Assembly (NCBI RefSeq): GCF_020405205.1
Contig: NZ_CP084469.1
Coordinates: 2,666,001-2,730,000 of the forward strand
Length of the DNA: 64,000 nucleotides
Origin: Natrinema salinisoli
Lineage (GTDB): Archaea; Halobacteriota; Halobacteria; Halobacteriales; Natrialbaceae
Reading direction: 5' to 3'
Under the pieces are notes generated by a model that made no database searches, was not told the DNA's origin, and saw only the letters and a program-made list of their open reading frames with translations. Positions 10,341 through 12,058 of this stretch are shown one piece after another. Position numbers and translations under genes: made by a program. Within the stretch, counting starts at the first letter, position 1. Every line of letters begins with the position of its first letter.

Positions 10341-10505
10341 TCAAAAGGGAGTGCGGAACAGCCGCGCTCGAACCTCGGCCGACAAATCGGCCGTTCGATC
10401 GAACTGCGTGATCCGGTCGCCGTCGGCGATCGCCAATTCGCAGTCGCCACGGAGCCACCAGCCGCCGACCGGATCGGGGCCGGAGAGCACCGCACCGCAG
10501 GCGAG
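10341..10505 (-). pseudogene. Degenerate zinc-ribbon gene fragment in frame with the preceding stop
   Basis: Reading on past the TAA of the winged-helix gene (10508-10506) in the same frame gives 54 codons before TGA at 10343-10341, with no ATG. The segment ACGAVLSGPDPVGGWWLRGDC aligns with CEAVLPLRDPLIGWWLCDDC of the zinc-ribbon gene at 10929-11069, and the DNA itself is clearly similar. The two CxxC pairs are broken: the first Cys is replaced by the stop codon position and the third by Arg. I read it as a decayed duplicate. The alternative is a short GTG-started protein. Confidence 0.55.
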
Positions 10506-10820
10506 TTAGATCCAATCCTCGGGAAGTTCGTCCCGGTGCCGTACCATCATCTCCAGGAGCGGGCTGATTTCGTCGAACCGCGGTCCCTTCGTCACCACGT
10601 GATTCTCCCTGTCCCAGTCGATGAAGCCGTAGTCTTCCAACAGGGGGAGATGCGTGTGTTCCATCTCGGTGAGGAGCGCCGCCAGTTCCTCGTCAGTCGT
10701 CTCCATATCCCCGATGTAGAGTTTCGAGTCGTCCTCCGGGTTGTGAGACAACATGTGGACCAGCAATCGACGGCGTTGAACGTTCCCGATTGCTTTGAAA
10801 AAACGACCCGCGTTGGACAT
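10506..10820 (-). CDS. Winged-helix protein (DUF7344-like)
   Basis: A 104-aa protein, MSNAGRFFKAIGNVQRRRLL..., with the haloarchaeal winged-helix pattern: helix (RRRLLVHMLSH), acidic linker, helix (TTDEELAALLTEMEHTHLPLLEDYGFIDWD) and a short wing (NHVVTKGPRFDEI). Such proteins usually regulate transcription. The ATG at 10820 is chosen over the upstream ATGs because the TATA-like AGTAAAG at 10844-10850 lies about 27 nt away, giving a leaderless message. Its frame continues after the stop into a degenerate zinc-ribbon segment. Confidence 0.7.
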   Translation of the reverse strand: MSNAGRFFKAIGNVQRRRLLVHMLSHNPEDDSKLYIGDMETTDEELAALLTEMEHTHLPLLEDYGFIDWDRENHVVTKGPRFDEISPLLEMMVRHRDELPEDWI

Positions 10821-10928
10821 ATTGGTAAGTGGAACCGAAAGAGAGTAAAGATGCGACATATTCACTCGAGTCTGTTTTTTGATTAAGCGAGTGACGGCGA
10901 GGGGAGACGGACCGACTCGACGAGTGAG

Positions 10929-11069
10929 TTACGCGATCCGTTTCCCCTCGGCGTCGACCGCGCACTCGCAGTCGTCACAGAGCCACCACCCGATCAGCGG
11001 ATCGCGGAGCGGGAGCACCGCCTCACAGTCGGGGCAGCGTTTCGGTTCATCGGCTCGAAACCCGGTCAT
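10929..11069 (-). CDS. 46-aa zinc-ribbon protein
   Basis: Begins MTGFRADEPKRCPDCEAVL and contains two CxxC knuckles (CPDC and CDDC) 16 residues apart, connected by a hydrophobic GWW strand: a minimal rubredoxin-like zinc ribbon. The ATG at 11069 is preferred over the in-frame one at 11138, whose extension is Arg-rich and lies inside the upstream gene. It overlaps the end of the gene at 11047-11259 by 23 nt, so the two are translationally coupled. Confidence 0.6.
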   Translation of the reverse strand: MTGFRADEPKRCPDCEAVLPLRDPLIGWWLCDDCECAVDAEGKRIA

Positions 11070-11259
11070 CACTCGCCGGTCCCCAGTCCGCGGTCGGCGG
11101 GGTCGCACGTGAGCAAGACGGATTGACCGAGCAGCCACAGGGGTAGGCGGTGCCCCTGTACAGCCTGCTCGAGGTCAGGATGCTGACGGGCTCGCCGCAA
11201 TGTGGACAGTCGGGGCGCGACGACGGGCGATCCTCGCTGCCGTCGGGATCGTCAGGCAT
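11047..11259 (-). CDS. 70-aa zinc-finger-like protein
   Basis: Contains CPHCGEPVSIL, then a loop and YPCGCSVNPSC, so four or five cysteines able to bind one zinc. Haloarchaea have many small proteins with a CPHCGEPV...PCGC pattern. The N-terminus is acidic (MPDDPDGSEDRPSS). It overlaps the start of the 46-aa zinc-ribbon gene in another frame, suggesting a two-gene unit. Function unknown. Confidence 0.6.
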   Translation of the reverse strand: MPDDPDGSEDRPSSRPDCPHCGEPVSILTSSRLYRGTAYPCGCSVNPSCSRATPPTADWGPASDDRVSSR

Positions 11260-11332
11260 GGTGATCGCGCCTCGAGCGCCCGTTTGCAGTCGAGACTGGT
11301 CGTATCGGACGATTCGGCCGTCGTGCGGGACG

Positions 11333-11338
11333 TTTATA
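11333..11338 (+). promoter_or_regulatory. TATA box for the structured RNA / micro-ORF at 11361
   Basis: TTTATA sits inside GGGACGTTTATATCCCGG. Its centre is about 25 nt before 11361, the expected TATA-to-start spacing in haloarchaea. No protein gene of normal size lies downstream on this strand for more than 4 kb, so the promoter most likely serves the hairpin-rich transcript. Confidence 0.5.
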
Positions 11339-11360
11339 TCCCGGTAGAATGTACGGAATC

Positions 11361-11460
11361 ATGGCTTCGAATCCCTTGGGTGGGATCTGGAAGCCAGGTC
11401 TCGGGTGTTCCTAGCACCCGGGGCGTTTGCGAACGCCCCCTATCGGAGACGTGGCCTCCG
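11361..11460 (+). ncRNA. Putative structured non-coding RNA with four consecutive hairpins
   Basis: Four stems follow one another in 100 nt. H1: GGCTTC (11363-11368) with GAAGCC (11390-11395), extended by ATCCC/GGGAT across a small internal loop. H2: CGGGTG (11402-11407) with CACCCG (11415-11420). H3: GGGCGTT (11421-11427) with AACGCCC (11432-11438), loop TGCG. H4: CGGAG (11444-11448) with CTCCG (11456-11460). A TATA box sits at the right distance upstream. A 17-codon ORF also starts at 11361 and ends in the H2 loop. It is not a recognisable tRNA, 5S, SRP or RNase P RNA. A transposon-end remnant is the main alternative. Confidence 0.5.
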
Positions 11461-11563
11461 GCTTAATCGTCATCGCGTTGTTACTTATAACTACTGCTTG
11501 GTGAGTCGAATATATCGTGTCAGCTCGAGAGCGATTCGTCCCCTCGTCTATTGTCAGGGAGGC

Positions 11564-12058
11564 TCACCGCGAGACGAACTGTCCGTCCTCGCGCTTCTCG
11601 ACCTCGTCGTGTTCGTACACGCTGCCGCTCATCGCCACGTAGACGCCGGTGTCGAGCGATTGCACTGCTCCCACGGCCATCCCGACGTTGAACGCCGCGT
11701 CGGAGTCGGTCATCCGCTGTGGTCTCGCTGCCCCGGTGAGAACGACGGTCTTGTCGCAGTCCAGTTGTCTTGCCGTTTCGATCATCGTGTCGGACCCGTG
11801 CGTGACGACGACGTTCTCGCCCGGTGCCTCCCTGCACGCTTCGCGTATTCTCTCCCTGTCGTCGTCGTCAGCGTCGAGACTGTCTTTCTTCATGATCGAC
11901 TCGACGGCGTAGTCGAAGTTCGGTTCCGGGGCGATCGTCTCGAGGATCCGCTCGACGGCGGGGTCGTCGATGGTGAAGTTGCGAGTCCCCTTGTGGGTGA
12001 GGTAGTCCTTGTCGATGGTTCCGCCCGTGGTCACGAAGTGGATGTACTCGTCCGCCAT
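11564..12058 (-). CDS. Stand-alone asparaginase N-domain protein
   Basis: A 164-aa protein equal to the N-terminal catalytic domain of type I/II L-asparaginases. It has TTGGTIDK with the first nucleophilic Thr, VVTHGSDTMIETA (where asparaginases have HGTDT, so Thr to Ser at the second catalytic Thr) and KTVVLTGAARPQ with the catalytic Lys. The C-terminal domain that completes the active site in full-length enzymes (about 330 aa) is absent, so either it works as an oligomer or it has another activity. Its ATG is 3 nt after the stop of the NhaC-type antiporter gene, so the two form an operon. Confidence 0.85.
   Translation of the reverse strand: MADEYIHFVTTGGTIDKDYLTHKGTRNFTIDDPAVERILETIAPEPNFDYAVESIMKKDSLDADDDDRERIREACREAPGENVVVTHGSDTMIETARQLDCDKTVVLTGAARPQRMTDSDAAFNVGMAVGAVQSLDTGVYVAMSGSVYEHDEVEKREDGQFVSR

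Follow-up and report, generated by a model that had tools for sequence, protein, structure and literature searches.

We analysed a 64,000-nucleotide stretch (hereafter the window) of contig NZ_CP084469.1 from Natrinema salinisoli, whose genome comprises 4.70 Mb on 3 contigs, and concentrated on a structured RNA block at 11361-11460 that is flanked by two promoter-like boxes and accompanied by a small zinc-protein gene. The block is delimited by its fold, by comparisons of cognate arms and by covariation in its first stem. Four consecutive stems are present on the plus strand: S1 (11363-11395; GGCTTC-GAATCCC ... GGGATCTG-GAAGCC), with a hypervariable apical part; S2 (11400-11422; CTCGGGTG / CACCCGGG), with a hypervariable loop, TTCCTAG, at 11408-11414; S3 (11420-11439; GGGGCGTT / AACGCCCC), for which GGGAC/GTCCC variants occur among copies; and S4 (11444-11460; CGGAG / CTCCG), a local alternative to a closing helix, P1 (11389-11459), formed by GGAAGCCA..GTCTC (11389-11403) and GAGAC..TGGC.TCC (11446-11459). 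P1 belongs to the minimum free energy structure of this copy and is mutually exclusive with both the base of S1 and S4. For the plus RNA (11361-11470), the folding energy is -53.9 kcal/mol (z -3.34; 1/200 dinucleotide shuffles equally good), and the minus strand (11355-11490) also folds well (z -3.57). A TATA-like box, TTTATA (11333-11338, plus strand), sits in a palindrome (11326-11343; CGGGAC-GTTTAT-ATCCCG) that serves as the putative plus-strand promoter box and is possibly bidirectional; an ATG (11361-11363) has its A 28 nt downstream of the first T of the box, and the plus transcript is predicted to start at about 11361-11363. This ATG opens a plus-strand micro-ORF (open reading frame) of 17 codons, MASNPLGGIWKPGLGCS, with an in-frame TAG at 11412-11414. 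On the opposite side, an AT box, ACTTATA (11483-11489, minus strand), is the predicted minus-strand promoter box, with a start at the P1 end. The zinc-ribbon small protein of 70 aa (11047-11259, minus strand; CPHCG...PCGC) has a tail that, past PCGC, is frameshifted relative to its paralogues. TTTATA, the four stems and the 17-codon ORF, which an earlier note on this DNA had placed at 11333-11460, are thus all present, and, as it stated, no normal-sized gene follows on the plus strand, none being found before an asparaginase-like minus-strand ORF that ends at 11564.

At the sequence level, this locus is one copy of a dispersed haloarchaeal cassette composed of an RNA block of ~100 nt, two inward-facing boxes and a small minus-strand zinc-protein gene; the comparison of copies bears out the unit and its copy number, covarying hairpins, fixed spacings, a coding zinc ORF and hypervariable loops. 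With a sequence-only model, 26 copies were retrieved in the N. salinisoli genome, all on contig C1, and matches were found in 88/392 genomes of the order and in at least 32 of 95 genera (8 loci scored per genome). A search with a 146-bp block, for which 14 loci were scored per genome, matched 29/61 genomes and reached 14 scored loci in several of them. The S2-stem pattern returned at least 120 stretches, and among the matches listed are Natrinema, which includes the closest named relatives, Natrialba, Halovivax, Halopiger, Natrarchaeobius, Halostagnicola, Natronorubrum, Natronolimnohabitans, Natronobiforma and Natronoglomus. Plasmid records also contain the RNA block, in stretches without annotated features, and it was absent from the viral contigs and phages searched. 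Rfam gave no hit at the gathering threshold in the window, none at E<=1 for 11230-11560 and none at E<=0.1 in the loci of four relatives; the RNA is likewise undescribed in the open-licence papers searched. Regarding sample sizes, there were 53 first copies, and 52 were aligned once L029 and the duplicate L001 had been set aside. Pattern searching yielded 159 copies, of which 136 had a box and an ATG and 128 could be segmented (8 failed) for the arm, wobble and stability tests, and 152 had CATG and were used for box spacing, minus-frame entropy and loop comparisons. Because the pattern itself demands the S2 stem and CATG, these counts are no test of either, and, being found by exact S2 match, the set is a lower bound.

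The hairpins are real and under selection. Across 128 copies and 100 permutations (a control that does not remove relatedness), cognate arms fit better than the arms of other copies in S1 (z 14.7), P1 (z 6.7) and S4 (z 4.9), with 0/100 permutations equal. Among 30 S1 hairpins grouped into a fixed-length class, 90.7% of cells are paired on the plus strand, with a covariation of 0.329 (0/500 shuffles), and 82.0% on the minus strand, with a covariation of 0.182. Arm permutations and the fixed-length class were used since S1 is misaligned in the MAFFT alignment (A1); for this reason, RNAalifold recovered from it only S2, without both-side changes. Wobble pairs of the apical S1 helix fit the plus strand in 94 cases and the minus strand in 9, and S1 is more stable on the plus strand in 112/128 copies. 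P1 was rejected as the sole fold of the Natrialbaceae copies: its wobbles lean towards the minus strand (115 minus versus 42 plus), an excess that comes from two columns. One middle strand pairs with either S1 or P1 in all three sequence types (GGAAGCC, GGAAGACC and GGGAACCC). A pseudoknot between the linker and the S4 loop is weakly supported (-4.76 versus -4.16; 0/200 permutations). S1 of this copy resembles haloarchaeal CRISPR repeats, as judged by eye; a CRISPR repeat of that type had 0 matches with <=1 mismatch in this genome, in a search confined to this type.

In the Natrialbaceae-type unit (152 copies), the minus-strand zinc-ribbon gene is followed by the palindromic TATA-like box, then by the RNA and finally by another AT box. 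Of the 150 copies with a plus box (152 examined), 149 place the A of ATG 28 nt downstream of the first T of that box, a spacing far beyond chance, and variants of the box besides TTTATA are TTTATG, TTTAAG and TTTTTG. Palindrome arms covary among copies (CGAGAC/GTCTCG and GGGAT/GCCCG types), and the AT box ACTTATA lies 24 nt past the S4/P1 end in 111/139 copies. A minus frame across the palindrome (MIPYILPGYKRP...) was rejected as a coding ORF1, given its flat codon-position entropy (0.81/0.81/0.82; 152 copies), a Lys codon AAA in 150/152 copies and a length of 15 to 165 aa; third codon positions of this overlapping frame are not freer, which argues for constraint at the DNA level. The earlier note's proposal that a promoter-like box belongs to a structured RNA of a new kind is supported by S1 covariation (the check on homologous loci that it had asked for), by the fixed box spacing and by the lack of an Rfam match. 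Its reading as a dual-function message or micro-ORF is not supported, as the plus-strand frame is not conserved: S1 varies in length between 23 and 36 nt, not in threes, and the TAG falls within the hypervariable S2 loop.

Two main features lay out of reach of the earlier note: the linked minus-strand zinc gene and a 26-copy family with hypervariable loops. A zinc-ribbon ORF (CPxCG ... PCGC) is found on the minus strand upstream of the RNA in 113/131 copies with room for it; the same test downstream of the RNA, run as a control, gave 0/120. This ORF is coding-like, with an entropy by codon position of 0.95/0.89/1.24 (110 copies). The 18 copies without it in place include some with HalOD1 (PF18545, 1.7e-5) between promoter and zinc ORF, some with a more distant zinc ORF and one with a frameshifted zinc ORF; in L219, L228 and L236, a HalOD1-domain protein occupies the first position on the divergent strand. 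No Pfam or NCBIfam family matched the zinc ORF at cut-off. The AlphaFold2 model of the protein has a pLDDT (predicted local distance difference test) of 67, its fold found no PDB match at E<=0.001, and the sequence matches were short zinc-knuckle resemblances. In size (<~70-100 aa) and in their two cysteine pairs, the C(P)XCG zinc-finger micro-proteins of Haloferax volcanii are alike, but no linked RNA is described for them in the excerpt available (PMC11241148). A second small zinc-motif ORF (10929-11069, minus strand; MTGFRADEPKRCPDC...WWLCDDC) is found only in a subgroup of copies (3/26 loci clustered), with similar ORFs at L077, L080 and L086.

In the N. salinisoli genome, 26/26 S1 hairpins and 25/26 S2 loops are distinct. 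Among 24 very close pairs of copies, the mean distance is 0.071 in the flank, 0.027 in the middle, 0.051 in the tail, 0.193 in the S1 apical part and 0.424 in the S2 loop, which is identical in 2/24 pairs. Under looser limits (153 pairs), the S2 loop differs by 0.436 and the upstream sequence by 0.232. Orthologous loci of two genomes (G000 and G027) differ mainly in the loops, with L030, L045 and L050 excluded as orthologues given that they paired on one flank only or ambiguously. In the close pair L237 / L213, one S2 loop (GTGCAA) is the exact reverse complement of the other (TTGCAC), as though it had been inverted. On the minus strand, the S2 loop is enriched in the 5' YUNR U-turn motif (54/152 versus 11.3, standard deviation 3.2, after shuffling); on the plus strand it is not (27 versus 24.1, standard deviation 4.5).

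The same architecture recurs with different sequences in a Haladaptatus type and in one further family. Relatives of the RNA were found in 9/10 Haladaptatus-type genomes searched, with up to 30 matches in one genome; they sit between a promoter and minus-strand SWIM zinc-finger genes, immediately 5' of the latter. On the Haladaptatus megaplasmids NZ_CP085339 and NZ_CP085302, SWIM zinc-finger genes occur at 24 and 23 places, respectively. These relatives have a TATA box on the minus strand, 22-24 nt ahead of the P1 edge (distances by eye), and a minus-strand ORF, encoding either a SWIM zinc finger (annotated, Haladaptatus plasmids) or a 45-aa zinc-motif protein, begins at the S1 edge; the minus strand is therefore predicted to be transcribed towards the zinc-protein gene. 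For the Natrialbaceae, we infer the same direction of transcription. P1 pairing is kept with different sequence in Haladaptatus-type and f4-type relatives. S1 is again more stable on the plus strand in 27/30 Haladaptatus-type leaders, and the whole leader is more stable on the coding strand in 21/30. On the Haladaptatus plasmids, the spacer between TATA box and start has further inverted repeats (TACCA...TGGTA), operator-like in appearance.

Beyond the unit, genes vary from copy to copy, in either orientation, and are unrelated, ordinary genes. A plus-strand leader of a downstream gene was accordingly discarded, the neighbours being random. In many relatives, the two genes that flank one of the loci are present with the entire insert missing between them; the unit thus comes and goes as a single piece, but its ends are not sharp. 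In the window, a DUF7344 gene (PF24035, 8.6e-8; 10506-10865, minus strand) adjoins the cassette, and similar sequence stands beside cassettes in three other genomes (G028, G020 and G009); thus, a linked regulator is possible. Positions 10407-10503 are a remnant of a second cassette: they repeat 10949-11031 at 73% and correspond to positions -430 to -331 in other copies. Another dispersed repeat (GGAATCGCCACGCCCTCCCCAACCGATTCGCTC...CTCATCCCTCGCGC) is frequently located at a distance of 200-700 bp from cassettes (L077, L081, L086, L087, L089, L090, L096 and L100).

How such a unit might work is best considered from its two strands. We tentatively favour a model, possible rather than probable, in which convergent promoters give rise to sense and antisense RNAs that control the zinc protein, and in which the loops have diversified for orthogonality among paralogues. 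Both boxes presumably fire. The minus transcript would be the 5' leader of the zinc-protein mRNA, folding through P1 and displaying the U-turn S2 loop, and the plus transcript would be a cis-encoded antisense RNA folding as S1, S2, S3 and S4. First contact between the two RNAs would be made by the S2 and S1 loops; pairing along their full length would follow and would shut down the zinc-protein message. Since an antisense RNA stays complementary to its own leader regardless of the sequence in the loops, these would be free to diverge, and selection against cross-talk among up to 26 paralogues might push them apart. The convergent boxes at fixed distances from both edges, the leader position of the RNA in relatives, the differing strand preference of the folds, the U-turn loop on the mRNA side and the diverging loops are what make a cis-antisense pair with orthogonality fit. 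The zinc mRNA of Natrialbaceae may also begin from the palindromic box, and control could therefore act on a read-through message only.

Known type I and plasmid copy-control pairs (hok/Sok, bsrE/SR5, pIP501 RNAII/RNAIII; PMC6562991) similarly combine a small-protein gene with an overlapping structured RNA on the opposite strand, a sense-strand recognition loop carrying 5' YUNR and several copies per genome; in hok/Sok, the 5' YUNR motif is located in the sense mRNA (PMC6562991). Fast loop contact, often through a 5' YUNR motif in the recognition loop, typifies type I pairs, and the minus S2 loop is enriched in this motif. Unlike those pairs, the cassette has an archaeal host, up to 26 copies and a zinc ribbon or SWIM zinc finger instead of a small hydrophobic peptide. 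Several observations weigh against antisense control: classical type I modules have hydrophobic toxins, which a zinc ribbon does not resemble; relatives have a weak plus-strand box or none (TTCAAG and TTACAG at about -28, read by eye); the Natrialbaceae minus AT box lacks an evident BRE (TFB-recognition element), and ~100 nt separate the RNA from the start of the zinc ORF; the minus-wobble excess of P1 is carried by two columns; and the very close pairs behind the loop distances are not mutually independent. According to PMC12390103, type I systems had until then been known from three bacterial phyla only. In archaea, the cassettes might even be the first family of type-I-like (antisense-RNA controlled) modules, which we consider rather unlikely; each genome would then hold dozens of orthogonal copies, with different zinc-binding proteins in different families and recognition loops under diversifying selection that make every copy respond to its own RNA only.

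The minus RNA might instead act alone, as a switchable 5' leader that is riboswitch-like or protein-bound, with no plus RNA: P1 with S2 and S3 would form a three-way junction, S1 by the start codon would compete with it, and the zinc protein or a metal would decide. Helices that exclude each other are a hallmark of riboswitches and regulated leaders, and S1 and P1 do share one strand; moreover, three families keep this mutually exclusive pairing with different sequences, and in relatives the RNA lies directly 5' of an annotated SWIM coding sequence, the start codon adjoining S1. A closing helix with two hairpins and a rival hairpin at the start codon are shared by the relatives with riboswitches and structured mRNA leaders. 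Unlike these leaders, the cassette has hypervariable loops, unexpected at a ligand site, S1 wobbles that fit the plus strand and no Rfam match; the fixed plus box at -28 and a Natrialbaceae frame beside S1 that is not coding-like also speak against a leader alone, which we consider rather unlikely. The plus RNA could also be the only product that matters, a family of trans-acting small RNAs whose copy-specific S1 and S2 loops hit different distant mRNAs, with the zinc protein as partner or as regulator of the shared palindromic promoter. The plus box, the plus-strand wobbles and loops that differ between all copies would be explained in this way; however, the U-turn motif sits in the minus loop, and relatives without a clear plus box keep the minus promoter and the gene, making this option unlikely.

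Two further explanations bear on the loops themselves. Their fast change may be mutational and not selected, with template switching at the S2 inverted repeat flipping or replacing loops, as the change from GTGCAA to TTGCAC, an exact inversion between two closely related copies, would suggest; yet of 42 close pairs whose loops differ, only 1 shows such an inversion, and the reverse-complement distance (0.564) equals the random value (0.561), so we consider this very unlikely. TnpB/IS605 omega RNA, IS110 bridge RNA and CRISPR-derived CreA are structured RNAs beside a gene, with variable parts. An RNA-guided mobile element of the omega or bridge RNA type, with the variable loops as guides, would suit the dispersal, the presence or absence at the same intergenic site among relatives and the variable loops within a fixed scaffold, but is highly improbable: the 25 commonest of the 190 families found across 92 neighbour proteins of the 26 copies include no recurring transposase or recombinase, no sharp ends are seen, neighbours are ordinary genes and loop 6-mers match flanking DNA within the permutation range (149 copies). 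The earlier note's RNA end of a lost TnpB transposon is not supported either, on the same data from the neighbouring genes.

Overall, an uncatalogued structured RNA with up to 26 copies per genome and a presence in at least 32 of 95 genera represents a large gap in archaeal annotation. For an RNA, it is unusual to retain structure while loops evolve several times faster than the adjoining DNA. Evolved orthogonality between antisense modules is mainly known from bacterial plasmids and type I modules; the cassettes would bear on whether archaea use such modules as well.
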